This document shows, piece after piece, positions 9,308-63,309 of a DNA stretch of 64,000 nt (its first letter is position 1; each line of letters starts with the position of its first letter). The stretch comes from Pseudoduganella lutea. Its GTDB lineage: Bacteria; Pseudomonadota; Gammaproteobacteria; Burkholderiales; Burkholderiaceae_D. The position numbers and the translations under genes were made by a program. The stretch spans positions 5,766,001 through 5,830,000 of the forward strand of contig NZ_CP035913.1 of the NCBI RefSeq assembly GCF_004209755.1, in the 5' to 3' direction. The notes beneath the pieces were generated by a model, which was not told the origin of the DNA, did not search any database, and worked only from the letters and a program-made list of their open reading frames with translations.

Positions 9308-10918
9308 ATGCACTCCAAGATCCTCATCATCGATTTCGGCTCCCAGGTGACCCAGCTGATCGCACGCCGCGTGCGCGACGCGGGCGTGTTTTCCGAAGTC
9401 TACCCGTACGACGTGTCGGAAGAATTCGTCCGCAACTACGGCGCCTCCGGCGTGATCCTCTCCGGCAGCCACAACTCCACGCTGGAAGGCGATTCGCCAC
9501 GCGCGCCGCAAGCCGTGTTCGAACTGGGCGTGCCGGTGCTGGGCATCTGCTACGGCATGCAGACGATGGCCGCGCAACTGGGCGGTAAGGTCGAAAACGG
9601 CCTGGTGCGCGAATTCGGCTACGCCGAAGTGCGCGCCCGCGGCCATACGAGCCTGCTGAACGGCATCAACGACTTCGTCACGCACGAAGGCCACGGCATG
9701 CTGAAGGTGTGGATGAGCCACGGCGACAAGGTGCTCGACATGCCGGCCGGCTTCAAGCTGATGGCATCGACGGAAAGCTGCCCGATCGCCGGCATGGCCG
9801 ACGAGGAGCGCAAGTTCTACGCCGTGCAATGGCACCCGGAAGTGACGCACACCGTGCAGGGCAAGGCCATGCTGGGCCGCTTCGTGCACGAGATCTGCGG
9901 CTGCAAGTCCGACTGGAACATGCCCGACTACATCACCGAAGCGGTGGAAAAGATCCGCGCGCAGGTGGGCACCGATGAAGTGATCCTGGGCCTGTCCGGC
10001 GGTGTCGATTCCTCGGTGGCCGCCGCGCTGATCCACCGCGCCATCGGCGACCAGCTGACCTGCGTGTTCGTCGACCATGGCCTGCTGCGCCTGAACGAAG
10101 GCGAAATGGTGATGGACATGTTCGCCAAGAACCTGGGTGTGAAAGTCATCCGCATCGACGCCGTCGACCAGTTCATGGGTCACCTTGCAGGCGTGACCGA
10201 CCCGGAGCAGAAGCGCAAAATCATCGGCCGCGAATTCGTCGAAGTGTTCAACGCCGAATCCGCGAAACTGACGAACGCGAAATGGCTGGCGCAGGGCACG
10301 ATCTACCCGGACGTCATCGAATCGGCCGGCAAAGGCAAGAAAGGCCAGACGATCAAGAGCCACCACAACGTGGGCGGCCTGCCGGAACACATGAAGCTGC
10401 AGCTGCTGGAACCGCTGCGCGAACTGTTCAAGGACGAAGTGCGCAAGCTGGGCGTGGCGCTCGGCCTGCCGTACGAAATGGTCTACCGCCACCCGTTCCC
10501 GGGCCCGGGCCTGGGCGTGCGCATCCTCGGCGAAGTGAAGAAGGAATACGCCGACCTGCTGCGCCGCGCCGATGCGATCTTCATCGAGGAATTGCGCAAC
10601 ACGCCGTATGAAGCGGTCGTGGTGCCCGGCTTCGACCAGGATGGCGCACCGCGCAACTGGTACGAAGCCACGTCGCAGGCGTTTGCCGTGTTCCTGCCGG
10701 TGAAGTCGGTGGGCGTGATGGGCGATGGCCGCACGTATGATTACGTGGTGGCGCTGCGTGCCGTGCAGACGCAGGACTTCATGACGGCGCATTGGGCGCA
10801 CCTGCCGCATGAGTTGCTGGGGCGGGTGTCGAATCGCATCATCAATGAGGTGCGGGGTCTCAATCGTGTCGTGTATGACATTTCCGGGAAGCCGCCGGCG
10901 ACCATTGAGTGGGAATGA
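9308..10918 (+). CDS. guaA: GMP synthase (glutamine-hydrolysing)
   Basis: The 536-residue protein has an N-terminal class I glutamine amidotransferase domain (catalytic Cys81 in [13 protein letters not shown] further on), an ATP-pyrophosphatase domain with the PP-loop SGGVDSS beginning at residue 230, and a C-terminal dimerisation domain ending TIEWE. It converts XMP to GMP using ATP and ammonia from glutamine. A start at 9275 is possible, but homology begins at [11 protein letters not shown]. The last codons and the following terminator are the integration target that recurs through the window. Confidence 0.98.
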
Positions 10919-10997
10919 TCAGGCTGCTTGAAAGCTCAAGCATTATCAAGCAGTGCAGTTAAATTAAGCCCCTGATTTCAGGGGCTTTTTTATGCCC
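10907..10997 (+). repeat. guaA 3'-end attachment repeat, copy A (chromosomal)
   Basis: This copy covers the final guaA codons (GAG TGG GAA TGA), the sequence GAAAGCTCAAGCATTA and the guaA terminator stem, ending in ATGCCC. The same order is found at 15398, 20604, 29705, 54576 and, weaker, 63232. After the core, about 80 bases (with GCAATCACGCTGGTATCGGAT) match the sequence after copy C. I interpret it as the left attachment site of the element array. Confidence 0.85.
10966..10991 (+). terminator. guaA intrinsic terminator
   Basis: AAGCCCCT and AGGGGCTT pair around GATTTC and are followed by a T run, a standard rho-independent terminator 48 bases after the guaA stop. It is duplicated with the attachment repeat at each later copy. 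Confidence 0.85.
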
Positions 10998-11187
10998 AAG
11001 TTTGCCAGGACTGGCAAAAACTCGCAGCCCCGAGCAGATCCGTTTGATGGCAATCACGCTGGTATCGGATTTCCGCGGGGCGTGCAGTGCGATCACGCCG
11101 TTGCGGTAGCCGGAAATGCTGCGTCGGCAGTGTCGCCGACGCAGCAAAACGCCGGCGACCTGCTAGACGATCATGCAATCAGGGGAC

Positions 11188-12072
11188 TTATTTTCCCGAC
11201 AAGCGATCCAGGCTAGCAGCGTTCAGCTTATTGACGTCAAATCTCCTGGCGAATCCGTCCAGCATTCCGCTGTCGGTAAATTGCCAGACAAGGTGCTCAT
11301 GCTGCCTGACGGACTGCGGCGCTTTGTTTTTTATGCTGAGGGCGCGATAGTCTGCAATCCAGTGGGGATGCGCTTTCAACGCCAGGTTTTCCTTGACTCG
11401 TGCGTTCCACCACGAGGCCGCAGTATAAATGATGGGTGTCCGGCCGGTTGCGGCCTTCACCTCCGCGGTAAAGTCGGAAACCACTTTAACGATCTGGTCG
11501 GGCGTCAGCGTTTCCCATCGGTCGACCTGTTTACCGCCCTGTTTCACGAAATCCCATTCAAGATCGACGACTGGCGCAAGATCCTCGGGCATGAGCCCTC
11601 CCGCGGCTTCCAGAACAGCCAGGTATGCTTTTGCCTGATCCTTTCCGGGTTTGTCCGCCGTCAGGAAATGATACGCCCCACGCCGGATATTGGAGCCCGT
11701 ACTCTTCCAGTTGGCAGCGAATCTGGGGTCTCGAAATCGATCTCCTTGGCTTGCTTTCATATAGGCGAACTTGACTCCGCTTTTTTCCATCGCCTGCCAG
11801 TCCACGACACCATTGTGATGGGAAACGTCAATCCCATATATTCCATCATCCGCATCCTTCGGAAAAATGAACATGCGACGGACATTCTTGTCAGCAGATG
11901 GTCCGAATTTGAGTACCTCGAAACTTGCGAGATCGGAGCGGGACATATCGTTGCTCAGGTCGATCCACTCAATTTGCGTAGATTCCGGGTTAGATGCAGG
12001 TGGTTTCGCACTGATTGGCGCGGCAAACAATGCAAGTACGGTGCAAACGGCTGATAATAAAGCGGATCGCAT
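11188..12072 (-). CDS. Secreted GH25-family lysozyme
   Basis: This 294-residue protein begins with a signal peptide (RSALLSAVCTVLALFAAPISA). The start at 12072 has GGAA a few bases upstream; an alternative at 12084 adds four residues but lacks a ribosome-binding site. After a roughly 55-residue N-terminal extension comes a GH25 domain: YGIDVSHHNG (Asp82), FAYMKASQG, GAYHFL and the catalytic-type PVVDLEWD (Asp170, Glu172), ending in HLVWQFTDSG. The family cleaves the MurNAc-GlcNAc bond of peptidoglycan. It is the first gene of element 1 and is divergent from the caspase-like gene, which suggests cargo acting on cell walls. Confidence 0.9.
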   Translation of the reverse strand: MRSALLSAVCTVLALFAAPISAKPPASNPESTQIEWIDLSNDMSRSDLASFEVLKFGPSADKNVRRMFIFPKDADDGIYGIDVSHHNGVVDWQAMEKSGVKFAYMKASQGDRFRDPRFAANWKSTGSNIRRGAYHFLTADKPGKDQAKAYLAVLEAAGGLMPEDLAPVVDLEWDFVKQGGKQVDRWETLTPDQIVKVVSDFTAEVKAATGRTPIIYTAASWWNARVKENLALKAHPHWIADYRALSIKNKAPQSVRQHEHLVWQFTDSGMLDGFARRFDVNKLNAASLDRLSGK

Positions 12073-12249
12073 TTTTATTTCCATTGTGTAATAAAAGTTA
12101 AGAATCGGCAGTGTCAGTTGGCGACAACATCAGGCCTCGTAGCTTGGGGTATTTACGCCTAAAGCCTATTCCTGACTTCGAAAGAAGGATAGCATCGGTT
12201 GTGGTGAAGCTGATACTTCTTGTGGCATTTTTACCTCCGGGAGTCGTTC

Positions 12250-14088
12250 ATGTTCTTCAGGTCGCTGGGAGTTGCAGTTATCAGGACGGCATTGTTAATT
12301 GGGTCAGCACAATGTGGCATGGCAGTGGCACAGCAAAAGGCGGTCGAGATCGCCGAACCGAAGCGTTTTGCACTTGTGATCGGAAATGCCAAGTACGGTC
12401 ACCGGGCGGGCAACCTAACCCGCTTGGGTTCACCGTGCGCCGACGACGAGAACTCCGAGAGCGATGCCAAGGCGGTAGCAGAGGCATTCGCGGATGCAAA
12501 ATGGGAAGTCGAGAAACTCTGCAATCTCGAGACGGCTGAGTTGCGAACGAAAATAAACGATTTCAATGATCGTGTCCTCGAAGTGCCCCGCGCCCTTGGT
12601 GTCATCTATTTCTCCGGACACGGTGCCCACGTTGCCGGCATGAATTATATTTTTGGCGTGGATGCGGAGTTTAAGCCAGAGGTAGAGTATTCGAAGTACA
12701 AGCAGCACCCGCACGCGAGATTGTTCGGCAAAGCTGCTGTCGCGCTGGATGATGCAATGAGCCAGCTAAGGCATTTGTGGGGCAAGGCGGTCGTCGTCGT
12801 CGTTGATGCGTGTCGCGACAATCCGATCGTCGATGAATTTCGCACGAAAAAAGTAGTGACTGCGCAGTATCCCGTTGCGGCGACGCAACTCCCAAATGTC
12901 GTGTTTGCGTTTGCTACGGCCGCTGGCGAAGTAGCGCCTGACGGGGGACCTGGCAACGTGTCACGCTACGCACGGTTTTTTGCCGAAGAGATCCGGCGCA
13001 GCGGTTCTGTGAGCACCAACGTAGAAATCGAGCACCTGTTGAGCGCAACGCGCACAAAAGTAATCAAGGACAGTGCCCACCGACAGATCCCTTCAAAGAT
13101 CGGGGATCTACAAAGGCCGCCCGTATTCTGCATGAAGGGCTGCCCAAGCCTGATGGAAGAGTGGGAGACCCTTGGCGGGCTGTTCGGACTAACTTCCGTG
13201 GCCGATGAATTTATAAAGCCTGCAATGCTGGCGCAAACGGGAGGCGTGGCGCTGCGTCCCGCCCGGAATGGCTATGTCGCGCCGCGAATGCAAACCACCG
13301 GGCACAGGAGCGGTAGTCGCACTGGAAATGCGCGCCTGTTCTTCACGTCCCAAGCTACAAATAGAGTCGAACCTCAAGCACCTGATGACGAGTCGGCCGA
13401 TCCCGGCTTACGGCAATTGAAAGTTGATATTCTCTATTGCAGCGGCGATGCGCTCATTGAAGAACGCAGAGCTAGGGCTTCTCAACTCCAGCAATATCTG
13501 GAAGGCTTGACGGGGGAACGCTCGCCTGTGCGTGGGTTCGAGATCGGTGCAACCAGGATACTCCCGCTCCCGCCAAACATAAATCAGCGCGTATATAAAA
13601 CAAGCGATTCCGCTGTTGTGTACAGCAAGAACAATCCTGCCGCCTTTGCCTGGGCCGATCACATTCGGGTTAAGACAAGGCCTGTTCTCCGGATGGCGCC
13701 GCAAGCCGGCTCGTCGTCGGAATTCCTGACAGTGTTGATTTGCGACGGTGTGGACCTGACATCGAAGCAGACGGTCGTCTATTTGCACGTCGGCAATGAT
13801 GATCATAGAAGGAACGCGCAAGCCTTGCTGGGTGATCTGCAAACGGCCGTACCGGAGGCAAACGTTATTCGTGGTATCGAGATTGTCAAATCGCTTCCGA
13901 AAAAATCTGACCTGCGCTATTTTTTCCCGGAACAGAAAGAGTTTGCAGTTCACCTGGCGGGCGCCGCATCAGAGGTTTTCGGCACGGCTGTCACGCCAAG
14001 ATTAATCCGCGGCTATGAAAACAGGCTGAAGGGCACGGCTGTGATGGAAATCTGGCTGGCGGAAACGCCGAAACGAGCTAGCGAGTGA
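12250..14088 (+). CDS. Secreted caspase-family (C14) peptidase
   Basis: A 612-residue protein with a signal-like N-terminus (RSLGVAVIRTALLIGSAQCGMAVA). The start at 12250 follows CGGGAG; an upstream in-frame start at 12220 is less likely. Residues 40-280 form a caspase-like domain with the strand RFALVIGNAKYG, the catalytic His124 in YFSGHGAHV and Cys188 in VVVVDACRDNP. The C-terminal 300 residues show no recognised domain, though DILYCSGDA and IRGIEIVKSLP read as compact alpha/beta sequence. Bacterial caspase-like proteins serve in regulated proteolysis, immunity and cell death; the substrate here is unknown. Confidence 0.82.
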   Translation: MFFRSLGVAVIRTALLIGSAQCGMAVAQQKAVEIAEPKRFALVIGNAKYGHRAGNLTRLGSPCADDENSESDAKAVAEAFADAKWEVEKLCNLETAELRTKINDFNDRVLEVPRALGVIYFSGHGAHVAGMNYIFGVDAEFKPEVEYSKYKQHPHARLFGKAAVALDDAMSQLRHLWGKAVVVVVDACRDNPIVDEFRTKKVVTAQYPVAATQLPNVVFAFATAAGEVAPDGGPGNVSRYARFFAEEIRRSGSVSTNVEIEHLLSATRTKVIKDSAHRQIPSKIGDLQRPPVFCMKGCPSLMEEWETLGGLFGLTSVADEFIKPAMLAQTGGVALRPARNGYVAPRMQTTGHRSGSRTGNARLFFTSQATNRVEPQAPDDESADPGLRQLKVDILYCSGDALIEERRARASQLQQYLEGLTGERSPVRGFEIGATRILPLPPNINQRVYKTSDSAVVYSKNNPAAFAWADHIRVKTRPVLRMAPQAGSSSEFLTVLICDGVDLTSKQTVVYLHVGNDDHRRNAQALLGDLQTAVPEANVIRGIEIVKSLPKKSDLRYFFPEQKEFAVHLAGAASEVFGTAVTPRLIRGYENRLKGTAVMEIWLAETPKRASE

Positions 14089-14224
14089 CGAATTTTCACT
14101 GCTTGCTGGCGCCATTTGCAGTATTGACGGATAGCGCAGGTTTTGCAGAGTTCGCTTTTGAAGCTGTCGTTACCGAATGGCGCGATTCCGTCAGGCGCCC
14201 ACATCAGTGCGCCTCGGAGGAATC

Positions 14225-15073
14225 ATGCGTATCCCGTCAGTCCTGCTTGCCGTCATGTTAGGGGCGGGCCCGCCCTTGTCGCTTGCGCAAATCTGTGGGA
14301 ACGCGAAACAAGGCGAGCGAACCTGGCTCCACAAGGACGCCATTTTATTCAAAAACGCAGTGCTACATGTCGATGCGGACGGAGCACCGAATTCCTACCT
14401 GCTCGATGGTAATGGGCTTTCCTACACGTGCGACGGCGTGGTAGCCATTGAAAATGGAAAGAAGGTCACTCCGAAGTCCGACCCGAAGCGCTGGCAGGAA
14501 AAATGTCGGGCGGCCTGGAAAAACGCGAAGGCGACGGGCGACTATCGTGGAGTTTCAATATTTGGTTTTGAGACGAACGAGAAAAACGTGCCGTTGGTGC
14601 AATCCAAAGATGACCCATTGCCGGGAAAGGCCTACATCAGCACCACCTCATACCCCGTTCCGGGCCAGCCCAAGGGTACCCAGCGCCGTTATGTAGACGC
14701 GACAAAGATTCCGTACATCGTGCTTCCACCAAGCTTCAGGGAAACCCATAAGATCAAGCGCGGCACCTTGGCAGTCGTCTATCGCCCGAAGACCGGCCGT
14801 CATGCATTCGCCGTGTACGGCGACAGCGGTTCCTTGGGCGAAGCTTCGGTCAAGTTGCATCAGGATCTCGGCAGTGATCCAATGATTGTGCGTGACGGGG
14901 TAGCGCGGGCGAAAGCGGGCATCGGCGACGCGAGCCTGATTGCAGTTTTCCCGAACGCGGTTGCTAGCCCTGAAACGAACACTGAGGCTTGGTATGCAAG
15001 CATCCAGCAAGAAGGAGCCACTGCGCTTGAATCATTCGGTGGACTGGAAGTGTTGAAAAGCTGTGCCAGATAA
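14225..15073 (+). CDS. Secreted protein resembling GH75 chitosanase
   Basis: A 282-residue protein starts at 14225 behind CGGAGGAATC. It has a signal peptide ending LSLAQ. The sequence contains DGAPNSYLLDGNGLSYTCDG, KIPYIVLPPSF, then VYGDSGSLGEASVKLHQDLG. The strand order IPYIVLP followed by a GD-G-GEAS segment resembles the GH75 chitosanase fold, known mainly from fungi and some bacteria. I cannot confirm the catalytic Asp/Glu pair, so activity is an inference. It follows the caspase-like gene by 136 bases and may be co-transcribed with it. Confidence 0.6.
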   Translation: MRIPSVLLAVMLGAGPPLSLAQICGNAKQGERTWLHKDAILFKNAVLHVDADGAPNSYLLDGNGLSYTCDGVVAIENGKKVTPKSDPKRWQEKCRAAWKNAKATGDYRGVSIFGFETNEKNVPLVQSKDDPLPGKAYISTTSYPVPGQPKGTQRRYVDATKIPYIVLPPSFRETHKIKRGTLAVVYRPKTGRHAFAVYGDSGSLGEASVKLHQDLGSDPMIVRDGVARAKAGIGDASLIAVFPNAVASPETNTEAWYASIQQEGATALESFGGLEVLKSCAR

Positions 15074-15397
15074 GGTCGTCTGCCGGCACGCGTTTATCTG
15101 GCGAGCGCTTCTATTTGGGGGCGATAGCATCCGTCTCTGGCGTAATAAAACTGAACCGTACCGGCTGTTGTAGAGGCCGGTTTGCTTGGGTCTGGCCGGC
15201 AGCAGATCGTTCGCGATACCATGAACGTAGGGCTCAACGGCGGGGATCACGGTTGCGGTGGGGTTAAATCAAGGTAATGCCCGTTGTTGCCAAGTTAAGG
15301 ATCGATGACTTGGGCATGGTATCGTGAATGGTACTGGGCCAAAGGAGCCATTAAAATGCAAAGCCAATGCAACGGCTTAGCTCATACACTGATCATC

Positions 15398-15482
15398 GAG
15401 TGGGAATGATGGGATAGCCTGAAAGCTCAGGCATTACTGAATAGTGCAATCCAACTAGCCCCTGTTTCCAGGGGCTTTTTAT
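15398..15482 (+). repeat. guaA 3'-end attachment repeat, copy B
   Basis: GAGTGGGAATGAT is followed by GGGATAGCCTGAAAGCTCAGG, a central segment with ATTACTGA, and a terminator-like stem GCCCCTG/CAGGGGC with a T run. It keeps the guaA-derived IEWE-stop codons in frame with a short upstream ATG (15356). It marks the boundary between elements 1 and 2. The rest of the 15074-15617 gap shows no gene. Confidence 0.8.
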
Positions 15483-15617
15483 TACTGGGCGCGAGACGGA
15501 ACTGGCGGCTTCAAGCTAGCTTGCGTGTGCTGCAGTTTGTGCTAGAGAGATAAGTTTTTCAGGGAATAAGTCCTGAACGTACAATCCAGTTATTCGACTA
15601 GCATTTTGGCTTGTACT

Positions 15618-15974
15618 ATGTGGACGCGCGCATCAGCAATCTTCTGCCTTTTTCTCTGCACATCCCTGGTCTTTGCGAAGGATACCGCCTCGGCGGGTTC
15701 TGACGCTGCCATACGCAAACGCCTGATCAAGGAATCCATCGCCTCCTATCCCGGTAGCTGCGCTTGTCCCTACAACATGGCCCGAAATGGCAGTTCATGT
15801 GGTCGTCGGAGCGCGTGGAGCCGGCAGGGCGGCTATGGGCCATTGTGCTTTGAGCAGGATGTCAGCAAAGAGATGATCGAGGAATGGCGCAAGGCTCATG
15901 CGGCGTCGCTGGACTCTGCAAACGAAGGACGGGCCACCCGTGCCGAATTGGGTGACGAGCGGTCGCAGCATTGA
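15618..15974 (+). CDS. Small secreted Cys-rich hypothetical protein
   Basis: The ATG at 15618 gives 118 residues with a signal peptide (TRASAIFCLFLCTSLVFA). The mature part has SIASYPGSCACPYNMARNGSSCGRRSA and GGYGPLCFEQDVSKEMI. This pattern of paired cysteines around a CPYN motif is one I recognise from many proteobacterial hypothetical proteins on genomic islands. The function is unknown; it may be a periplasmic disulfide-stabilised protein. It is the first gene after attachment copy B. Confidence 0.7.
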   Translation: MWTRASAIFCLFLCTSLVFAKDTASAGSDAAIRKRLIKESIASYPGSCACPYNMARNGSSCGRRSAWSRQGGYGPLCFEQDVSKEMIEEWRKAHAASLDSANEGRATRAELGDERSQH

Positions 15975-16089
15975 TTTGACATAGCGTGAACGACCTTCCC
16001 GCAGGCTTACAAAGCCCGACACAATCTTTTACTACTCTAGCCGTCGCCAGCTGTCGCCGGCGTTTTCGCTACTGCGAAAGCCCGGCGCA

Positions 16090-16330
16090 ATGACGATGGG
16101 CGACCTGGTGCTGCACATGCTTCCACATAAAGGTTTGGTTCGCAACCGGTCGGCAATGATGCGCCACTGTGCGCTGGCCGCTGCCGCTGTTTCTTGCACG
16201 AAGATCGTGTCGATCATGGCGAGTACGGCTTGTCGCTGGCCCTTTCCAGCATGGGCCAGGGCATTGCGGATGAAGTGAACGCGGCAGCGCTGCGTCACTC
16301 GGCCGACGTATCGTTTGTATCGATAGCTTC
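16090..16330 (-). pseudogene. IS256-family transposase fragment
   Basis: On the minus strand the frame reads TQRCRVHFIRNALAHAGK, then AVLAMIDTIFVQETAAAASAQWR, which matches the conserved region of IS256/mutator-type transposases (QRCRVHFMRN). Only about 60 residues are recognisable and the frame breaks soon after RLRTK. There is no start, no DDE catalytic set and no terminal repeats, so it is a remnant. It lies in a 718-base stretch (15975-16692) that otherwise shows no gene apart from the leader of the downstream transporter. Confidence 0.7.
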
Positions 16331-16692
16331 CATTTAACCTTTCGATTTTACAAAGGCAGCAGTCCGTAGCGATACTGCAGCGAGATCGGCTGGCAACTGG
16401 CCGCTCTCATGACAACGATACGGAGACTCGATTGACATTCACCGGAAAGGCGGCACCCCGTGCCGCAATGAGGGCACGCGCCCTCGTCATCGCTTGGCAA
16501 CGTGGCATAAGGATTACGGATCGCGGCATTGCCGTTTCAAACGATTACAGGCGCAGCAACCCGCGGGTGACATATTCTGCCGACATTTGCATCGGTGGCC
16601 GCAGTGCGCCGGCACTTCGATCCATCGCGCAGCACAACGATAACGCCGATATGCTGCAGCGGCAGGTCGCTCCTGTCGCAAGTGGGGCATAG

Positions 16693-18045: not shown

Positions 18046-18091
18046 CGCCGCACGCTAACAAAAAACAAAACAACGAGACAGGCAGGAACAA

Positions 18092-19189: not shown

Positions 19190-19323
19190 CGCTGCACCGT
19201 GGAACGTCCGCGCTGTCATCTGGATTCAAACTTCGAATAAACATTATTCGAAAGACAGGAAAATTTGTAGTCCACTTTACGGCTAAAGTTCCCTCATAAC
19301 CGATTCTTTCAAAAGGAGACACC

Positions 19324-20523: not shown

Positions 20524-20603
20524 GTATTTCCGATGGTGTCCGGACGGTAGGACCGCCTGTTCCACTATGGATTTAACGACTTGGCAACACCCCATTGATA
20601 GTC

Positions 20604-22218: not shown

Positions 22219-22227
22219 GTTGCTCGG

Positions 22228-49591: not shown

Positions 49592-49668
49592 GTAAGCGGC
49601 CAGCCCACCCACCAATGAATTAAACCGCAATATGGCGAAACTCGGGTATCACAACTTCGAGGATAGTC

Positions 49669-54426: not shown

Positions 54427-54575
54427 AATTGCTGAGCAATATTTGTCGTAATGAGAGATTCAGAGCTCGTAGTCGGAGCGACTCAGCAGTCAAAGTATTT
54501 CCAATGCTATCCGGACGGTAGGGGCTGCCAGATTCGCTAACGGATTCAGCGACTTGTCGAAACCAATTGATAGTT
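54427..54575 (+). repeat. Element right-arm repeat before copy E
   Basis: This stretch is the counterpart of 29555-29704: ATTTGTCGTAATGAGAGATTC and AGTCGGAGCGACTCAGCAGTC, then TATCCGGACGGTAGG. The close match to the arm before copy D shows that elements 3 and 4 are of the same family. Confidence 0.8.
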
Positions 54576-54665
54576 GAGGGGGAATGATGAGCTAGCCTGA
54601 ATGCTCAGGCATTGACAGGCAGTTCAACAATACTAAGCCCTGGATTTCAGGGCTTTTTTATGCCC
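54576..54665 (+). repeat. guaA 3'-end attachment repeat, copy E
   Basis: GAGGGGGAATGATGAGCTAG (one change in the GAGTGG codons, which turns the Trp codon into Gly) is followed by CCTGAATGCTCAGGCATTGAC and a slightly eroded stem AAGCCCTGGATTTCAGGGCTT. The next 110 bases resemble those after copy C, including TCGGTAGATCCGGCAATTACC. This is the right end of element 4. Confidence 0.8.
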
Positions 54666-54893
54666 TTGGTCGGTAGATCCGGCAATTACCGCAGCCTCGA
54701 GCAGCCACGATGGTATTGAATTCTCGAAATACTGCCAGTGTGCACGTAGCACTATCGGGGCGGATCGTGTTTTAAAAGGGCGCCTGCAGCGAACGGCGGA
54801 AGTGCCCTACCTGTGCAACTACCAGTTCCAGCACGCAGATCCACGTGCAGCTTCAATCTGCTGGCCACCGAACCTTCGATAGTCCGACCCGCA

Positions 54894-55943: not shown

Positions 55944-56251
55944 ACGAACTCTCCATGCTGAAGTCAAGACGAGAGCCGAGCGTATTGCACGAGCGTCTTG
56001 CAAACCAGGCGCTTTTGTGCATACGACGCATCCATGATTTCCATTGGCGATTCGTGATTTTTCATGACTTAATTCAGCCTGGGAGATTTTAGACATTGGC
56101 CCAGCATTGCCGGTGTTATCTGCCTCATCTGTTCGGGACCTAGGAACGATACTGATGTCAATAAGGAAATAATACTTACTTTTCGTTATTTAACACCTAT
56201 ACTGCCGGGTTTGCGGTCCGCGACGCACCGCCCTCACCAGCAAGGTTTACC

Positions 56252-56692
56252 GTGATTTCTTCTTCCCGCAGGACGCCGTCGAACGGCCTCCTGTTCTGCA
56301 TCGCCCTGGCGGCGGGTGGTTCGGCAAGCGCCGCGCCGCGCCTCGTGTGCCAGCTGGCGCAAGGGGACACCGCAACGCGTATCGAAGTGGCGCCGACGTC
56401 CGATCCCTACACGGTCGCGACCCGGCAAATCAACCATTTCCGCTTCAAGGCGGTCGTGGTGGGCGATGCCAGCGGGGTCGAGTATGTGAAGCTCTACACC
56501 TATTACGAAACCGTGCGCGGTGGGGCGGAGCAGGGCGGGGAAAAGCTGCGCCTGGTCCACCAGGCCAGGTATGTCGCGCCGGCGCTCCAGCACGACGACG
56601 GCCCCGGCCTGACGGGCACCGTGTACGTGTACGAGCCCCGCCTGGGCCGCGAGTTCAGCTACGACTGCGCCCTGCGCGAGGTGGCGGCGTGA
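56252..56692 (+). CDS. Secreted hypothetical protein upstream of capA-like gene
   Basis: The 146-residue protein has a signal peptide (NGLLFCIALAAGGSASA) and a compact beta-rich body: RLVCQLAQGDTATRIEVAPTSDPYTV, KAVVVGDASGVEYVKLYTYYE and VYVYEPRLGREFSYDCAL. It has two cysteines that may pair. I do not recognise the family. The stop overlaps the GTG start of the next gene by four bases (GTGA), so they form an operon and may act together in the envelope. It is divergent from the Rieske gene across 308 bases that should hold promoters for both. Confidence 0.7.
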   Translation: MISSSRRTPSNGLLFCIALAAGGSASAAPRLVCQLAQGDTATRIEVAPTSDPYTVATRQINHFRFKAVVVGDASGVEYVKLYTYYETVRGGAEQGGEKLRLVHQARYVAPALQHDDGPGLTGTVYVYEPRLGREFSYDCALREVAA

Positions 56693-57723
56693 AGCGCCGC
56701 GCCTTCGCCGCGCAGGCGCTCGGCCTTGCCGCCCATGCGCGCAAGCTCGCCGCCTGTGCCGCATTCTTGCTGCCGGCAGCGTTTGCCGCCGCCCAGGACG
56801 ACGCCGGCGAGCCGGTCATCCTGGCGATCGTCGGCGACGTGATGCTGGCCGATGGCCCCGGCAAATCGATCGCGCGTGGCCGCGATCCGCTGGCGCCGTT
56901 TGGCAAGATCCTCGCCGAGGCCGATATCCGCGTCGCGAACCTGGAGTGCGTCATTGCCGCCCGTGGCATCGCGGAAGACAAGCCGTTTACGTTCCTGGCC
57001 CACCCGCGCACGATGGCCGTGGTGAAGCGCCATTTCGATGCGGTCAGCGTGGCCAACAACCACAGCGGCGACTTCGGCGCGGCGGCGTTTGCCGAAATGC
57101 TCGATCGCCTGCGCAAGGCCAGGGTCGGCGCGTTCGGTGGCGGTCGCGACCTGTCGGAGGCGCACGCGCCGCTGATCGTGGAACGGAAGGGCTTGCGGAT
57201 CGCGCTGGTGGGCTATAACGAATTCTTCCCGCGCAGTTTCGAGGCCGATACCGACAAGCCGGGCATCGCCTGGAGCGAGGATGAACAGGTGCGCCGCGAC
57301 ATCATCCAGGCGCGCGAAGTGCATGGTGCCGACCTGGTGATTCCCTTCATGCACTGGGGGATCGAGCACGAACCGCAGGCCAGCGCGCGCCAGAGAGCGC
57401 TGGCCCGGCTGATGATCGATGCCGGCGCCGATGCGGTGATCGGCGGCCATCCGCACGTCACGCAGGACGTGGAAAGCTATCGCGGCAAGCCGATCGTCTA
57501 CAGCCTCGGTAATTTTGTTTTCGACAGCTTCACGGACGTGGACAACAACACTGGCTGGCTGCTGCGCCTCGAGCTGGACCGGCATGGCGTGCGCAGCTGG
57601 AATACCGTCATCGCGCGCATGGATGGCCAGGGCACGCCGCATCCGCGGCCCGACCTGCCGGTGCAATGCTGGGATCGCGAGACGGCCGAAGCGCGGGCGT
57701 GCATGGCTCAGGTGCCAAAGTAG
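56689..57723 (+). CDS. CapA-family metallophosphatase-like protein
   Basis: The GTG at 56689 gives 344 residues. A hydrophobic N-terminal segment (LAACAAFLLPAAFAAAQ) is a signal or anchor. The rest matches the CapA/PgsA family: ILAIVGDVMLADGPG, VANLECVIA, FDAVSVANNHSGDFG, VIPFMHWGIEHE, VIGGHPHVTQDVE and PIVYSLGNFVFDS, all with the His/Asp/Asn metal-site residues. CapA proteins take part in poly-gamma-glutamate capsule export in Bacillus, but Gram-negative members are mostly uncharacterised. No capB/capC genes are nearby. It is coupled to the upstream secreted protein. Confidence 0.88.
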   Translation: MKRRAFAAQALGLAAHARKLAACAAFLLPAAFAAAQDDAGEPVILAIVGDVMLADGPGKSIARGRDPLAPFGKILAEADIRVANLECVIAARGIAEDKPFTFLAHPRTMAVVKRHFDAVSVANNHSGDFGAAAFAEMLDRLRKARVGAFGGGRDLSEAHAPLIVERKGLRIALVGYNEFFPRSFEADTDKPGIAWSEDEQVRRDIIQAREVHGADLVIPFMHWGIEHEPQASARQRALARLMIDAGADAVIGGHPHVTQDVESYRGKPIVYSLGNFVFDSFTDVDNNTGWLLRLELDRHGVRSWNTVIARMDGQGTPHPRPDLPVQCWDRETAEARACMAQVPK

Positions 57724-57821
57724 AATCGGGATGGAAGCGCACGATCCGCGCTGACCTGATGCTAGCCACCAAGGTGGTCGTGGTAACCTGATCCGTGTTC
57801 GATTCCTGCACCGGAGCACCG

Positions 57822-59318
57822 ATGGCACCCGATCAAGCGTCCGTTATTAAAGATAGCTTTTATCTTGCGATGGAGAAAATCTCGGATTACGCGGTGTTCC
57901 TGACCGACGCGGCCGGATACATCACGTACTGGAACCCGGCAGCGGAACAGATGAAAGGCTATAGCGCGGCAGAAGCCATCGGCATGCATTACAGCATGCT
58001 GTATTCGCCCGATGCGCGCGAGCGTGGGGAGCCCGAACGGAACCTGCAGCGCGCGGCTGCGCAAGGAACCTACCAGGAACAGGCGTTAAGACAGACAAAG
58101 GACGGGCGCATGTTCTGGGCAATGACAGAACTCATCGCCATCCACGACGATCACGGGCAGTTAACAAGGTTCTGCAAGGTCACCAGGGACATCACCGCAT
58201 TTCGTCGATTGCAGGCGCGACTGCAGGAACAGAAACAGAAAGTGGAAGTCACCCTGGAATCGATCGGCGACGGCGTGATTTCCGTCGATCCGGTGGGGCA
58301 TATCGGTTTTGTCAATCGTAAGGCCGAAGAGATCACTGGCTGGAGTTCCGCCTCCGCGCAGGGCAGGGAGGTCGGCGAAGTTCTTCATGTGGTGGACCCG
58401 GCACTGCAGCGCCCCAATGAAAGCGACCTGCTGCGTGCCGCCAGTGCATCCGATGGCGCCGCCGTCGTCATCGTCGAACATCCTTTGGGCGGGCGGAAGA
58501 TCATCGAAAATGTCACGACGCCCGTCTGCCTCCCGGATGGCGAGAAGCTCGGCGAAGTCATGGTCATCCGCGACGTTACACAGCGCGAGGCGGACGCGCA
58601 ATTGATGCGTGACGCCGAGCGCAACAAGGACCATTTCCTTGCCACCCTGGCGCACGAGCTGCGCAATCCGCTCGCCCCGATCCTGTCCGCAGCCCAGCTG
58701 CTGGAAGCAGGCCCCGGTGGCGAGCAGGCACGCCAGATGGGAAGAATCATCACCCGGCAAGCCCGCCATATACTGAGCCTGGTTGAAGACCTGCTCGATG
58801 TTTCGCGCGTTGCACAGGGAAAGGTCCACCTGGACATTGGTGCGCACCCGATCCAGCCGATCGTGACGAGTGCGATCGAACAGATCCAGCCAATGCTCGA
58901 ACAAAAAGGGCACCACCTGACCGTCAATATGGATGACGAACCATTGCTGGCGATCTGTGACCGGGAGCGCATGGTCCAGGTGATTGCCAATCTTCTTAAC
59001 AATGCGGTCCGCTACACCAACGCTGGCGGGCACATCTGCATCGATCTTCGGGCGGACAAGGAGCAGCTGGAATTATCGGTCACTGATGACGGCATCGGTA
59101 TCGCAAGCGACATGCTGCCCCGTGTGTTCGACCTGTTTGCGCAGGAAAAGCGCGCCTCCGACAAAAGCCGGTCGGGCCTTGGCATCGGGCTGGCGCTGGT
59201 CAAGAACATGGTCGAGCTGCAGGCCGGGGAAGTGCATTGCTATAGTCGCGGCAAAGGCCACGGGAGCCGGTTCGCGATCAAACTGCAACGCCACGCCGAG
59301 GCCGAACCCACCCTGTGA
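57822..59318 (+). CDS. PAS-PAS sensor histidine kinase
   Basis: The ATG at 57822 (after CCGGAGCACCG) gives 498 residues. Two PAS domains lie at about 15-135 (SDYAVFLTDAAGYITYWNPAAEQMKGY) and 145-265 (GDGVISVDPVGHIGFVNRKAEEITG). The kinase core follows with the H-box FLATLAHELRNPLAPI, the N-box VIANLLNNAVRYT, DDGIGI and the G2 loop SGLGIGLALVKNMVE. No membrane helix is present, so it senses a cytoplasmic cue. No receiver domain and no response-regulator gene are adjacent, so it may be an orphan kinase. It converges on the L,D-transpeptidase gene. Confidence 0.92.
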   Translation: MAPDQASVIKDSFYLAMEKISDYAVFLTDAAGYITYWNPAAEQMKGYSAAEAIGMHYSMLYSPDARERGEPERNLQRAAAQGTYQEQALRQTKDGRMFWAMTELIAIHDDHGQLTRFCKVTRDITAFRRLQARLQEQKQKVEVTLESIGDGVISVDPVGHIGFVNRKAEEITGWSSASAQGREVGEVLHVVDPALQRPNESDLLRAASASDGAAVVIVEHPLGGRKIIENVTTPVCLPDGEKLGEVMVIRDVTQREADAQLMRDAERNKDHFLATLAHELRNPLAPILSAAQLLEAGPGGEQARQMGRIITRQARHILSLVEDLLDVSRVAQGKVHLDIGAHPIQPIVTSAIEQIQPMLEQKGHHLTVNMDDEPLLAICDRERMVQVIANLLNNAVRYTNAGGHICIDLRADKEQLELSVTDDGIGIASDMLPRVFDLFAQEKRASDKSRSGLGIGLALVKNMVELQAGEVHCYSRGKGHGSRFAIKLQRHAEAEPTL

Positions 59319-59339
59319 CGGGTGCAACGTTGCCAGTTG

Positions 59340-60311
59340 CTATTGCCCGCTCAGCACCGCGAGTTGCTTGCCTGTGCCGCCTTCGCCCAGCGGGGCGCTG
59401 GTCACCAGCAACGTGCTGCCAGGCGTCAGCAGCGCAGTCACGCGTTCGTAGAAATCCGGCGGGATGTTTACTCTGTTGCGGGCCACCTCGTCCACCGGCC
59501 GGCCTTCCTCGCCTTCGTGGCCGGCCACGCCCGCGTAGATCCATTGTTGCCCGTCGCCGCTGCCCCCGGCCAGAGTTAGTACGTGCGTGGCGTCGTCGTC
59601 GCGTGGCAGCGTGACGGCGGAACGGCCGATCGGCACGCCGTTGCGCAGCACGACCGCCGCCTGGTCGGCGCGGGACAGCACGATCGTCACAGGCCCGGCA
59701 GGCGATTTTTCCGGCGTCCAGAAATCGGCTGTGCGGTCGATGTCCGACGTGGACGGTGCCAGCACTTCGCCGCCGCCCGTCGCTACCGGGTGTGCCGAAT
59801 CGCCCGCGACAATGACCGTGGTGCCGAGCCGCGTGGCGGAAAACAGCTGCCTGGCGAAAGCCATGGGCAGGTGCACGCAGCCGTGGCTTTCCGGGTATCC
59901 GGGAAGCCCACCGGCATGCAGCGCCACGCCATCCCAGGTCAGGCGCTGCTGATAGGGCATGGGCGCGTTGTTGTATGTGCTCGAACGATGCCTGGCATCT
60001 TTCTGCAGGATCGTGAAGACGCCGGTCGGCGTCTGGTATCCCGGCTTGCCGCTCGAGACAGTCGCCACGCCGATGCGTACGCCGTTCCGGTACACAGTGG
60101 CCAGCTGTTTCGACAGGTCGACATACACCAGCACCGGGCCTTGCGGCGCGATTTGCGGCGCCCACACCCACTCGCCCGGTTTCAGGCTGGCCGACTGGCG
60201 CGCGAGTTCGACCGCGGACGATACGGTGCGCCCCTGTGCCGACGCCGTTCCTGCGAACAGCAGCGACGCCATCGCCAGGCATACCGCACTGGCTGGAATC
60301 GTGAATTTCAT
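59340..60311 (-). CDS. Secreted L,D-transpeptidase (YkuD domain)
   Basis: The start at 60311 follows AAGGAAAAGCGC and gives 323 residues with a signal peptide (PASAVCLAMASLLFAGTASA). The YkuD domain begins VLVYVDLSKQLATVYRNGVRIG and contains the active-site motif SHGCVHLPM, where Cys is the nucleophile. Such enzymes make 3-3 crosslinks in peptidoglycan or attach lipoproteins to it. The C-terminal 120 residues have no recognised domain but include TIVLSRADQAAVVLRNG, which repeats the early YkuD strand pattern. The upstream gene ends 11 bases before, so they form an operon. Confidence 0.9.
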   Translation of the reverse strand: MKFTIPASAVCLAMASLLFAGTASAQGRTVSSAVELARQSASLKPGEWVWAPQIAPQGPVLVYVDLSKQLATVYRNGVRIGVATVSSGKPGYQTPTGVFTILQKDARHRSSTYNNAPMPYQQRLTWDGVALHAGGLPGYPESHGCVHLPMAFARQLFSATRLGTTVIVAGDSAHPVATGGGEVLAPSTSDIDRTADFWTPEKSPAGPVTIVLSRADQAAVVLRNGVPIGRSAVTLPRDDDATHVLTLAGGSGDGQQWIYAGVAGHEGEEGRPVDEVARNRVNIPPDFYERVTALLTPGSTLLVTSAPLGEGGTGKQLAVLSGQ

Positions 60312-60322
60312 GCGCTTTTCCT

Positions 60323-60739
60323 TCACTGCTGCGTACCCACCGTGAGCGTATAGCTCGCGCGTTCATTACGGCGCGCGGCGTTGCGCATCAGGTAGACGTT
60401 CACCGTGTATTCGCCATCCTGCTCGATCTTGCCCCGATACTCGAGCCCCTTGATCGAGCCATTGAACAAGGCTTCCTGCGCGCCCGGCGCCGTGATGTTG
60501 AAGTAGTTCGACCGCGAGTTCGTCTTCAGGTTGACGGTAATGGTCTGCCCCTGCCTCAGCTGAACTTTGTACTCCGCAGTGTCGTAGCCGCGTATCTTGC
60601 CGCGCAAGGTCCTCGAGCCCGGCGTGCTGGCATCGACCGTGTGCTTCTCGACCTTGTCGGCTGCCTGGGCGCCATGCGGCAGCCATGCCAGCGCACCGCA
60701 CACTGCCGCACTGGCGATCAATACAGCGAAACGTGTCAT
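60323..60739 (-). CDS. Secreted beta-sandwich (PPC-like) protein
   Basis: The start at 60739 (behind GAAGGGATC) gives 138 residues; a longer frame to 60790 precedes the signal peptide (AVLIASAAVCGALAWLPHGAQA). The mature part has RGKIRGYDTAEYKVQLRQGQTITVNLKTNSRSNYFNI and DGEYTVNVYLMRNAARRNE, the strand order of bacterial pre-peptidase C-like domains. It probably binds or stabilises something in the periplasm, and its place just upstream of the L,D-transpeptidase suggests a cell-wall context. Confidence 0.75.
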   Translation of the reverse strand: MTRFAVLIASAAVCGALAWLPHGAQAADKVEKHTVDASTPGSRTLRGKIRGYDTAEYKVQLRQGQTITVNLKTNSRSNYFNITAPGAQEALFNGSIKGLEYRGKIEQDGEYTVNVYLMRNAARRNERASYTLTVGTQQ

Positions 60740-60761
60740 CGTGATCCCTTCGTGATTTTCC

Positions 60762-60884
60762 TCATGCGGGGCCGGTGATTCCACACCCACTCGTAGAACC
60801 GGGTAATGGCGTCAGCATGTGCGCGATGCGCGTCGGCCAGTGGCGCTTTCCCTCGAGGATCGGATGGACCGTTTCAGTGCTCAT
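60762..60884 (-). CDS. Short ORF coupled to ackA, possibly truncated
   Basis: A 40-codon frame (STETVHPILEGKRHWPTRIAHMLT) starts inside the ackA stop with an ATGA overlap and a strong GGAGGAAGC site, so it is likely translated. A one-base slip after HMLT would open a second coherent frame (AITRFYEWVWNHRPRMRK). It may be a small native protein or the start of a lost gene. Family unknown. Confidence 0.4.
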   Translation of the reverse strand: MSTETVHPILEGKRHWPTRIAHMLTPLPGSTSGCGITGPA

Positions 60885-62089
60885 GCTTCCTCCACCAGCG
60901 CAGCGGCATGCCGCGCAATCATCAGTTCTTCGTTGGCCGGCACCACCCACGCTTCGACCTTGCTGGCGGGGGCGCTGATGCGGGAGATGCCGCTGGCACC
61001 GGCGACGGCATTGGCTTCCTCGTCCAGCGCGAGGCCAAGCCACGCGGCATCGCGGCACACCGCGGCGCGCAGCGCCACGCTGTTTTCGCCGATGCCGCCG
61101 GAGAACACCAGCGCATCAAGACCGCCCAGCGCGGCCGTCAGCGAACCGAGTTCGCGGCCGATGCGGTAGACCAGCAGGTCGATCGCCAGCCGTGCACGCG
61201 GATCGTCGCTCGCCTCGAGCGTGCGCATGTCCGCCGACAGGCCGGAAACCCCCAGCAGTCCCGATTCCTGGTACAGCAGCCGCTGCACTGCCGCCACATC
61301 CATGCCCAGCTCGTCGATCAGGTACAGCACCACGCCGGGATCGAGGGCGCCACAGCGCGTGCCCATCGGCAGGCCGTCGACGGCGGTGAAACCCATCGTG
61401 CTGGCGACGCTGCGGCCGGAGCGCATGGCGCACATGCTGGCGCCATTGCCCAGGTGGGCAGCCACGACGCGCCCTCCAGCCAGGTGCGGCGCGAAGTCGG
61501 TCACGCGACTGGCGATGTATTCGTAGGACAGCCCGTGGAAGCCGTAGCGCCGGATGCCGCGCTCCGTGATCGCTGGCGGCAGCGCGAACGCCTGTGCCAA
61601 CGGCGGCTGCGCCGTGTGGAATGCCGTGTCGAAGCACCCCACTTGCGGCACCTGCGGCGCGAGCGCCAGCACGGCACGTACGGGCGCCAGGTTATGCGGC
61701 AGGTGCAAGGGCGCAAGCGGCGTCAGTGCTGCAAGCTCCTCGAGCACGGCGCCATCCAGCCGCTGCGGGCCGCTGTAGCGCGCGCCGCCATGCACGATGC
61801 GATGGCCGACCGCACGCACGTGCAACCCTTGCAGGTGTTCCCCGGCATGGTCGATCAGGAATGCCATCGCCTGTTCATGATCGAGCGGCGTGCCGTCCCA
61901 GAGACGCTCTCCCGCCGGCCGGCCGGCGGCGTCGAAGGCCGTGAAGCGTGTCCTGCCGGCATACAGGTTTTCCACCTTGCCCTTCAGCGCCGGCACCAGC
62001 GCAGCGCCGTGGAACAGGGAAAACTTGATGCTCGACGATCCGGCATTGATGACCACCACGGCATCGTTCGGCGCCAGCACATCAGCCAC
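60881..62089 (-). CDS. ackA: Acetate kinase
   Basis: The protein (402 residues from a GTG at 62089, or 399 from a GTG at 62080) shows the acetate/propionate kinase marks: VINAGSSSIKFSLF at the N-terminus, GHRIVHGGARYSGP, CFDTAFHTAQPP, RRYGFHGLSYEYIA, VAAHLGNGASMCAM and FSGGIGENS. It interconverts acetyl phosphate and ADP with acetate and ATP. The start overlaps the stop of the phosphotransacetylase gene upstream, which makes translational coupling likely. The pair lies between repeat copies E and F, so it may be element cargo rather than core, although both genes have host-like composition. Confidence 0.93.
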   Translation of the reverse strand: MADVLAPNDAVVVINAGSSSIKFSLFHGAALVPALKGKVENLYAGRTRFTAFDAAGRPAGERLWDGTPLDHEQAMAFLIDHAGEHLQGLHVRAVGHRIVHGGARYSGPQRLDGAVLEELAALTPLAPLHLPHNLAPVRAVLALAPQVPQVGCFDTAFHTAQPPLAQAFALPPAITERGIRRYGFHGLSYEYIASRVTDFAPHLAGGRVVAAHLGNGASMCAMRSGRSVASTMGFTAVDGLPMGTRCGALDPGVVLYLIDELGMDVAAVQRLLYQESGLLGVSGLSADMRTLEASDDPRARLAIDLLVYRIGRELGSLTAALGGLDALVFSGGIGENSVALRAAVCRDAAWLGLALDEEANAVAGASGISRISAPASKVEAWVVPANEELMIARHAAALVEEA

Positions 62090-63032
62090 CCAGGATCTTT
62101 GGCTCGACCAGGCGGCGCCGGGCGACGAGCACGGCCACCGCACACGAAGCCAGCCGCGCTGCGACGGAATCGGCCCGGCTCGTGAGGATCAGGGGAACGC
62201 GCGCCCCGAGCACGATGCCGGCCGCCCCGGCGCCGGCCATGAACGACAGGCTCTTGGCCAGCATGTTGCCCGCTTCCAGGTCCGGTGCGACCAGCACGTT
62301 GGCACGGCCGGCGACCGGCGACACCAGGTGCTTGATCGCGGCGGCTCCGGGATCGATGGCGTTGTCCATTGCCAGCGGCCCGTCGAGAATACCGCCAGTG
62401 ATCTGGCCGCGGTCGGCCATCTTGCACAGGGCCGCCGCATCGAGCGTCGCGGGCATCTTCGGGTTGACCGTTTCCACCGCTGCCAGGATGGCGACCCGCG
62501 CTTCGCCGAAACCCAGGATGTGCGCAAGGTCGATCGCGTTCTGCACGATATCGACCTTGTCGGCCAGCGCGGGCACGATGTTGATGGCGGCATCCGTGAT
62601 GATCAGCGGTTCGCCATGGCCAGGAATGTCCATCACGAAGCAATGGCTGAGCCGGCGCGCGGTGCGCAGCCCCGCGGTCGCCGAAACGACCGCGCCCATG
62701 AGCTCATCGGTATGCAGGCTGCCTTTCATCAGCGCCTGCGCGCCACCCTCGCGCACGATCTCCACGGCGCGTGCCGCGGACGCATGGCTGTGTGGCGTAT
62801 CGACGAGGGGGAGCGCCGAGATATCCAGCGCCGCATCGGCGGCGGCCTGCTCGATCCTCGCGCGCGGGCCGATCAGGATCGGCTGGATCAGGCCGAGCCG
62901 GCTGGCGTCGAGCGCCGATTCCAGCGCATGGGCGTCGCAGGGATGGGCCAGTGCCACGGTGACCGGGCCACTCTCCCTGGCCAGGGCGATCAGCTTATCG
63001 AAGTAGGGATGACCGGTGTCCGGGATACTCAT
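62082..63032 (-). CDS. Phosphate acetyl/butyryltransferase
   Basis: The start at 63032 (MSIPDTGHPYFDKLIALARESG) gives 316 residues; an upstream in-frame ATG at 63059 is weaker. It belongs to the short phosphotransacetylase group (Ptb/Pta C-terminal type): VALAHPCDAHALESAL, LMKGSLHTDELMGAVV, HCFVMDIPGHGEPLIITDAAINI and PVAGRANVLVAPDLEAGNMLAKSLSFM. It transfers acyl from CoA to phosphate, forming the substrate of the following kinase. Many betaproteobacterial relatives have an added enoyl-CoA hydratase domain; none is present here. Acyl-chain preference cannot be read. Confidence 0.88.
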   Translation of the reverse strand: MSIPDTGHPYFDKLIALARESGPVTVALAHPCDAHALESALDASRLGLIQPILIGPRARIEQAAADAALDISALPLVDTPHSHASAARAVEIVREGGAQALMKGSLHTDELMGAVVSATAGLRTARRLSHCFVMDIPGHGEPLIITDAAINIVPALADKVDIVQNAIDLAHILGFGEARVAILAAVETVNPKMPATLDAAALCKMADRGQITGGILDGPLAMDNAIDPGAAAIKHLVSPVAGRANVLVAPDLEAGNMLAKSLSFMAGAGAAGIVLGARVPLILTSRADSVAARLASCAVAVLVARRRLVEPKILGG

Positions 63033-63231
63033 ACGGACACGCCTGCCGCGATGCAGCAAAGCTCAACCCGGCATGCGGAGACAGGTTCCAACGACAGGCA
63101 CATGGACGCTCCAATGATGTGTTGGTACGATCTTAGCCATAAATCAACACTGTAGCCAATATTTCTTGTGCAGCGCGCAAGCACTCACGCAAATTGCGGT
63201 GCCCGCGACCGGCGCCTGTGAATCGGCCACT

Positions 63232-63309
63232 GAATGATGGGATAGCCTGGACGCTCGGGCATTACTGAGAATGGACCTACGAGCAGGCCCTGAGTACAGG
63301 GCCTTTTTC
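63232..63309 (+). repeat. Degenerate guaA-type attachment repeat, copy F
   Basis: TGAATGATGGGATAGCCTGG, GCTCGGGCATTACTGAG and a hairpin GGCCCTG/CAGGGCC with a T run follow the same order as copies B to E, most like B. The guaA coding bases GAGTGGGAA are not conserved. It could be the far end of the element array, or an old decayed copy. No other gene is seen in 63060-63361. Confidence 0.55.

Follow-up and report, generated by a model that had tools for sequence, protein, structure and literature searches.

Six copies of the guaA 3' end mark a probable stack of integrative elements in Pseudoduganella lutea

The guaA gene, which encodes GMP synthase, is described as an integration site for integrative and mobilizable elements (IMEs), integrative and conjugative elements (ICEs) and phages (PMC5704250, PMC8627217, PMC9376610, PMC9782041). 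Here we examine the DNA downstream of guaA in Pseudoduganella lutea, within a window of 64,000 nucleotides that comprises bases 5766001-5830000 of a one-contig genome of 7.50 Mb. The tail of guaA and the terminator behind it occur six times in this window (copies A to F), and the five blocks between the copies are named after the two copies that bound them. Wider searches covered 144 kb of the same sequence counted from the window start, so that positions beyond 64 kb are also given in window numbering. The target gene, the six attachment (att) copies and the recombination genes are as follows.

9275-10918, plus strand: guaA (GMP synthase), the target gene (Pfam GMP_synt_C 4.8e-42, GATase 5.6e-38; longest reading frame)
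10907-10997, plus strand: att copy A, core GAGTGGGAATGAT and terminator; left end of block AB
15282-15482, plus strand: right end of AB and att copy B (core 15398-15410, terminator)
20484-20694, plus strand: right end of BC and att copy C (core 20604-20616), then the left end of CD
21022-22218, plus strand: intact tyrosine integrase of 398 amino acids in block CD (Arm-DNA-bind_3, Phage_int_M, Phage_integrase)
22228-22494, minus strand: AlpA-family protein, candidate excisionase, convergent with the integrase (PF05930 5.9e-9)
29576-29795, plus strand: right end of CD and att copy D (core 29705-29717), then the damaged left end of DE
29888-30442, plus strand: decayed integrase of block DE behind copy D, an N-terminal part and a C-terminal fragment with the middle missing
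54447-54664, plus strand: right end of DE (degenerate repeats) and att copy E (core GAGGGGGAATGAT, 54576-54588), then the damaged left end of EF
63232-63308, plus strand: att copy F, partial core (GAATGAT) and terminator; no right end found upstream

The original prediction had placed copies of the guaA tail at 10907, 15398, 20604, 29705, 54576 and 63232, and all six positions are real, F being partial. The single repeat sequence claimed for them holds in part: copies A to D have the core GAGTGGGAATGAT unchanged, and copies B to E the segment GCTCAGGCATT, while the cores of E and F, the segments of A and F and most of the stems deviate. The core of E reads GAGGGGGAATGAT, with one change, and that of F is broken, since this copy begins only at GAATGAT (63232); the segment reads GCTCAAGCATT at A and GCTCGGGCATT at F, and the exact stem AGCCCCTGATTTCAGGGGC is found only at A and C, with variants at the remaining copies. 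When copy C (311 bp) was compared with the whole genome by BLAST, the other five copies were recovered (A 1.8e-21, B 1.5e-14, D 3.0e-48, E 2.3e-50, F 6.0e-7) with no significant match beyond the six, the other 20 of 26 matches having E values of at least 0.58. Throughout the 144 kb the 13-base core occurs with at most one mismatch only at A to E, and nowhere on the opposite strand; allowing two mismatches adds two places, 52808 and 64230. Experimentally mapped guaA sites are described with a core equal to this one (PMC9376610, PMC9782041).

There is next to no chance that the copies are simply an ordinary repeat family linked to terminators. A terminator of the CCCCTGATTTCAGGGG type does follow guaA in many relatives that have no adjoining integrase of the family described below, and short matches to the terminator alone occur elsewhere in relatives. 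The idea is contradicted by the BLAST result above, a wide spread of the repeats outside guaA having been looked for and not found, and by the att pattern (at most 2 mismatches), which is present in 3 of 392 genomes of the family, with a single copy in each of the two besides this one (G003 and G069, met below, were outside this draw). It is also very improbable that the guaA tail was multiplied by homologous recombination or segmental duplication instead of by an integrase. Recombination between direct repeats of about 90 bp is conceivable, and a guaA fragment with a 660-bp direct repeat does lie about 100 kb downstream; the copies are, however, only 75-84% identical over the 32-292 bp where local BLAST aligns them in pairs (A and F give no alignment at the threshold used), they are flanked by end sequences common to other islands, and duplication would be expected to bring guaA coding sequence along rather than to begin at the core.

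Alignment of the flanks reveals a right end of about 130 bp, containing two ATGGTAT-like repeats, ahead of copies B to E, with weaker forms at C and E. To the right of A and C lies a left end made of core, terminator and a second repeat pair, which consists of TTGATGGC or TTGATGGG followed by CACGCTGGTAT (the pairs of this genome were identified by eye). This pair extends to about 11071 behind A (by eye) and stands near 20740 after C; it is damaged at D and E and unrecognizable at B and F. The junction of right end, core and left end is complete at C and degenerate at D and E, B has a right end and core without the left-end pair, and F has neither end. The paired repeats are putative arm-binding sites of the integrase, and the six copies are supported as att junctions of guaA-specific integrative elements.

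These ends were compared with a genus sample of 74 genomes, the present one included (numbered with the prefix G), in which the DNA downstream of guaA was compared for 70 relatives. In G063 the left end beside guaA is 87% identical to that at copy A over 154 bp. A profile for the right end, made from sites of this genome and of relatives, gives 2e-19 at B, 1.5e-25 at D and 1.1e-20 at E and also finds C and a relic at 84104-84198; with E<1e-9 it finds a single site in each of 12 relatives, of which 11 had been used in building it and that of G022 is new, with weak matches (E 0.0028-0.037) in G042, G050, G066, G070 and G073. A profile made from the sites of the 11 relatives alone returns, across the 144 kb at E<=0.05, exactly B (9.7e-14), C (2.1e-8), D (5.6e-15), E (5.8e-5) and a relic at 84 kb, the values spanning 5.6e-15 to 0.0018. 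Neither the att profile nor the full right-end profile produced a match at E<=0.01 in 20 shuffles of the 144 kb, these being crude shuffles of 2-mer blocks. Of the 11 relatives that have a second core, 6 show a strict form of the right-end repeat pair, starting 81-82 bp ahead of that core; this form is unmatched in the other 5 and at all sites of this genome, and the strict pattern of the left-end pair matches G015, G040, G070, G073 and a GIsul2-like plasmid island. With such end signatures, guaA elements can be found even where they carry no integrase.

Each left end carries its own terminator, and the terminator of guaA would therefore change with every insertion. By eye, at least two dissimilar terminator types follow guaA in the genus, and the type present behind guaA in relatives such as G009, G020 and G021 resembles, again by eye, the sequence that starts right of the displaced core in G007 and G038.

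The intact integrase lies 326 bases after copy C, as predicted, and the genome has no second intact copy close to it in sequence. The remnant behind copy D is 86% identical to it over residues 15-164 and 95% over residues 360-398, and one distant tyrosine recombinase elsewhere in the genome has 26% identity over about 176 residues. A scan of a sequence collection gave 243 integrase loci (numbered with the prefix L); among the best 80 of these 243, the integrase stands 220-420 bp behind guaA in 76, drawn from alpha-, beta- and gammaproteobacteria. As for the exceptions, L058 (Mesorhizobium) has a core and a stretch of paired repeats (by eye) before the integrase with no guaA in the locus, and is apparently the inside of another stack; L078 has a possible degenerate core, and L044 and L050 have no core before the integrase. 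Within the genus, 16 of the 70 relatives have a tblastn match of at least 247 residues to the integrase within 4.5 kb behind guaA, some of them decayed, and G068, outside the 70, also has such a match. The AlpA gene stands on the minus strand behind the integrase in 12 relatives, adjoining it in 11 and about 1.5 kb away in G040.

We consider it very probable that the region is a stack of guaA-specific integrative elements that arose through repeated site-specific integration, or tandem accretion, and the tandem array of the original prediction is upheld by the junctions at C, D and E, by the integrase family at guaA and by close species with a shorter stack or single elements. The tyrosine integrase would recombine GAGTGGGAATGAT at the guaA stop codon with the equal core of a circular element, and the DNA to the right of the crossover would then be the newcomer's. 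With its left end the newcomer would supply a terminator, arm sites for the integrase and a copy of the guaA tail, so that guaA would stay whole and terminated, and the left end of the earlier occupant would be displaced to the newcomer's right end. Stepwise insertion of this kind, with growth on the guaA side, would yield an array of the form guaA/left end, cargo, right end/core/left end, cargo, right end/core/left end, and so on. Block CD retains an integrase and an AlpA-type factor and DE a decayed integrase, and AB, BC and EF, in which no integrase was found, would be passengers, non-autonomous or decayed. The CD integrase could still serve, and might excise, passengers in trans if their cores and arms have stayed intact, for which A, B, C and D are the best candidates. 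The locus would then show legibly how islands accumulate at a single gene, with intact, half-decayed and integrase-less elements adjacent.

A sister species, G003, has a shorter version of the stack. Its guaA is followed by an integrase element, a right end and core at +10,530, a PGA_cap element and a degenerate core at +15,256. The integrase protein is 97% identical to the one described here, the first 3 kb of the integrase element are 91-94% identical to CD, the other cargo being different, and bases 56153-57723 of the window (block EF, PGA_cap) are 94% identical to its second stacked element. The blocks shared with G003 are bounded there by repeats, and shared blocks without intervening repeats were looked for in relatives and not found. 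Because an integrase element and then a PGA_cap element follow guaA in G003, EF and F stand in the order of G003 behind a CD-type element; compared with G003, DE sits between CD and EF, and AB and BC lie in front. The second site of G003 runs into a left end like that of G069, a genome in which the integrase is decayed and 77 bp remain of the EF-type PGA_cap gene. On the simplest reading, the stack of integrase element and PGA_cap element is old, or moved as a unit, and DE was added to it (or lost from G003), AB and BC being added on the guaA side.

The same adjacency bears on a rather unlikely alternative, in which a single composite island with internal att-like sites, resembling the attL, attLR and attR of GIsul2, later lost integrase genes, so that the sites here would be internal modules. 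GIsul2 is reported to have a third such site at guaA (PMC9376610), and CD-type and EF-type modules are neighbours in G003 in the same order as here, so that some blocks may have moved as a unit. Several features speak against one composite origin: the left-end subtypes differ, that at A being like G063 and that at the second site of G003 like G069; GC (guanine-cytosine) content differs strongly between blocks, from 0.525 to 0.642; and a second, decayed integrase with 86% identity lies behind D.

States simpler than the present array are found in relatives, with two cores and a degenerate third in G003 and single elements in others. One further pattern-matching core lies downstream of guaA in 11 of the 70 relatives, among which G003 also has the degenerate third copy. 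None of the 70 has a stack deeper than the present one, which exceeds all those met in the genus sample; the stretch read was under 13 kb in 9 relatives, 13-20 kb in 44, 20-38 kb in 1 and at least 38 kb in 16, so that longer stacks could be missed. A second exact core is absent from the 76 guaA-linked integrase loci (1.5-11.6 kb downstream), L007 being the only one with a one-mismatch second core.

Accretion would leave the former neighbour of guaA displaced to the right. For 14 right-end or second-core sites, spread over 13 relatives, we compared the adjoining 3 kb on the right with what follows guaA in all the others. At 10 of the 14 sites the flank begins with sequence similar to DNA lying no more than 100 bp behind the guaA of a different relative. 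Such matches are mostly short, at about 70-250 bp, and terminator sequence may account for part of them. In G007, which has a 29.4-kb element, the match extends over 2.6 kb and begins 72 bp behind guaA in G053; in G064 it extends over 245 bp, 11 bp behind guaA in G001.

A number of observations weigh against stepwise accretion, or against parts of it. Only 4 of the 16 relatives with an integrase behind guaA have the right end (G003, G007, G038 and G040); ten of the 12 others were read for at least 38 kb (G005, G019, G043, G045, G048, G063, G069, G070, G072 and G073), and the remaining two for 26.9 kb (G015) and 9.8 kb (G026). Conversely, 9 of the 13 relatives with a right end (counting the weak G050) have no integrase of the family between it and guaA. 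As right end and integrase are so often apart, several guaA integrases may use this right end, or its sequence may diverge fast. The strict repeat patterns match none of the sites of this genome, whose repeats were aligned or recognized by eye. Four of the 14 displaced flanks have no guaA-adjacent match (the third site of G003, G016, G038 and G050), and neither an empty site or native right flank for this genome nor any guaA neighbourhood matching the flanks of F and of the 84-kb relic was found among the 70 relatives; bases 63240-64000 match only G030 among the other 73 genomes, and not on its guaA contig. No relaxase or conjugation gene was recognized in Pfam scans of chosen open reading frames (ORFs), some small ORFs being outside these scans. 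The anatomy of the ends and the order in common with G003 are well supported; present mobility, service in trans and the route of transfer between cells are inferred.

The blocks themselves also count against the simplest form of the model. Both ends are present in AB and CD, and in DE both in degenerate form; BC has no left-end repeat pair and EF no right end. The five blocks of the original prediction do differ in cargo, and with such differences in the completeness of their ends, five intact elements would be an overstatement. A pair homologous to the MFS and porin genes of BC occurs in G003 (53 kb downstream of guaA) and in G069 (at a distance of about 160 kb from guaA), and on this comparison BC may be captured chromosomal DNA. 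The blocks and their main genes are listed below.

10919-15397: block AB, 4.5 kb, GC 0.546
12220-14088: caspase-family protein in AB
14177-15073: chitosanase-like protein in AB, below the Pfam cut-off
15410-20603: block BC, 5.2 kb, GC 0.603, with an MFS transporter, a porin and an alcohol dehydrogenase-like protein
20616-29704: block CD, 9.1 kb, GC 0.525, the sole element with an intact integrase
24258-24647, plus strand: Mrr-type nuclease stretch in CD (Pfam Mrr_cat_2 1.3e-4)
24812-25891, plus strand: NACHT ATPase stretch in CD (Pfam NACHT 7.8e-10)
29717-54575: block DE, 24.9 kb, GC 0.639
30994-41346: giant ORF 1 of DE, 3450 amino acids
41360-48229: giant ORF 2 of DE, 2289 amino acids
52020-53825, minus strand: ORF of 601 amino acids in DE
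54588-63231: block EF, 8.6 kb, GC 0.642, with a Rieske/VanA-type oxygenase, PGA_cap, a PAS histidine kinase and others
56347-57723: PGA_cap protein in EF

Block AB has both ends and both cores, and neither an integrase nor an AlpA of the guaA-specific family was found in it, a pattern that fits a cis-mobilizable element (CIME), which lacks genes for integration and transfer and keeps attL and attR. Its GC content looks foreign (0.546 vs 0.644 for bases 1-10906), and its caspase-family protein belongs to a set of 439 proteins at E<=0.001 (itself counted), the nearest other being 85% identical. No integrase was found in BC or in EF. A 144-bp stretch of BC at 16150-16293, matching DNA behind the integrase of G073, was considered as a remnant of a left module and rejected as a dispersed repeat: G073 has four stretches and G050 one with 82-83% identity to it, and it is probably an insertion-sequence fragment.

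An integrase-less block such as AB leads to a bolder extension of accretion, to which we give a small chance, namely that guaA serves in this group as an open cassette platform in the manner of an integron. Integrase-less modules of left end, cargo and right end would be collected, excised and reshuffled in trans by one integrase/AlpA pair, every insertion also renewing the guaA terminator, and the cassettes would be AB and the small stretches of three relatives. Between guaA and the right end with its core there are 2.0, 2.5 and 3.7 kb in G052 (L192), G064 (L139) and G042 (L201), respectively; no integrase of the family was found in these stretches, the search being limited to that family, and they are candidate minimal passengers.

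Anti-phage defence is suggested by part of the cargo, both in this genome and in relatives. The Mrr-type and NACHT stretches of CD lie in different frames and are candidate anti-phage cargo, possibly broken. PADLOC gave no strong match for 17 ORFs of the window (best 2.7e-4, for an ATPase, and 0.0026 for a candidate family), and 4 of 10 proteins from guaA-linked stretches of relatives match defence or candidate-defence models: PDC-M60A in G003, PDC-M54A and a Ppl-type protein in G022, and DarG in G040. A defence island flanked by guaA is described in Stenotrophomonas maltophilia (PMC11680222). The giant ORFs of DE have no Pfam match, and a sequence search of the PDB gave nothing at E<=0.1; ORF 1 has 52 proteins at E<=0.001 (itself counted), those named by their source being all hypothetical or uncharacterized, and ORF 2 was found in this genome only among 120 genomes sampled from the order. 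IS66-type transposase fragments occur in DE at 49632-51463, one stretch being 74% identical to the second stacked element of G003. No phage structural gene was found among the ORFs scanned with Pfam, and PHROGs, run on 10 ORFs of the window, gave a useful name for the integrase only. A search of phage records with the guaA region found guaA- and guaB-like genes and was not used.

Tandem accretion of integrative elements together with integrase-less passengers is a known kind of event, of which this is an unusually deep case. The original prediction held that stacks in one site are much less often documented; they are better documented than that, in the ssrA islands of Dehalococcoides, in SGI1 and in ICE/CIME accretion. 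In Dehalococcoides, as described in PMC3146451, multiple tandem islands within 100 kb are marked by direct repeats of the target 3' end, some with an integration module at the left edge and 15 without, the latter proposed as possible cis-mobilizable elements; the system differs in its serine recombinase (DsiB, CcrB-like), its tmRNA target and its reductive dehalogenase cargo. Accretion of ICEs, IMEs and CIMEs is likewise pictured as stepwise integration beside a decayed element that keeps its att sites (PMC5704250), whereas no conjugation or mobilization module was recognized here in the chosen ORFs. Arrays of SGI1 are reported to reach six copies (PMC2297512), these being copies of one element, unlike the present blocks with their differing cargo.

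Among elements at guaA itself, GIsul2 is similar in its target at the 3' end, its core GAGTGGGA and its integrase with alpA, and its three att sites are described as allowing an integrase-less unit (CR2-sul2) to be excised by the GIsul2 integrase (PMC9376610). The core GAGTGGGA(ATGAT) is repeated at the ends here, exact at A to D, with one change at E and truncated at F. The differences are six sites vs three, and an AlpA gene convergent with the integrase vs a codirectional one; no rep, stb or trb genes, which are features of GIsul2, were recognized here. The best plasmid matches to the integrase (62.4% identity) include an island with alpA, repA, repC, a stabilization gene, trbJ, trbK, trbL and ars genes, which from this gene content we take as GIsul2-like, with no sul2 or CR2 gene in the stretch examined. 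Its AlpA is 46% identical over 69 residues to the one described here and its left end has the same order (core remnant, terminator, repeat pair); it does not lie at guaA, and the full GAGTGGGA core was not found in that stretch. Epsilon15-like phages such as vB_EcoP_ZX5 are also similar, with a core attgagtgggaatgatt at the guaA 3' end (PMC9782041), and integrases of the epsilon15 type are about 52% identical to the present one. In PMC13310844 guaA appears as a typing gene. A literature search, in which subscription journals were thinly covered, returned no title on a multi-element guaA stack in this bacterial group.

Beyond the window, a right-end relic without a recognizable core lies at about 84048-84198, and suggests that the array once reached 20 kb past the window. 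Copy F was considered as the native right border and rejected, its flank not being found beside guaA in the 70 relatives; this flank holds a cellulose synthesis cluster (BcsE, a cellulose synthase with PilZ, and BcsC) at about 65150-76320, starting about 1.8 kb past F. The DNA at 136-139 kb was also considered as an ancestral neighbour of guaA, since in G003 and G069 it comes after the guaA region; in four relatives with one-contig genomes (G008, G011, G024 and G031) its distance to guaA is 1.0-1.1 Mb, and it therefore is not the native flank in general. The guaA fragment mentioned above is 525 bp long with 70% identity and lies at genome positions 5878946-5879470 (112946-113470 in window numbering), about 102 kb downstream of guaA, where it adjoins a 660-bp direct repeat whose two copies (112291-112950 and 114701-115360) are 95% identical.

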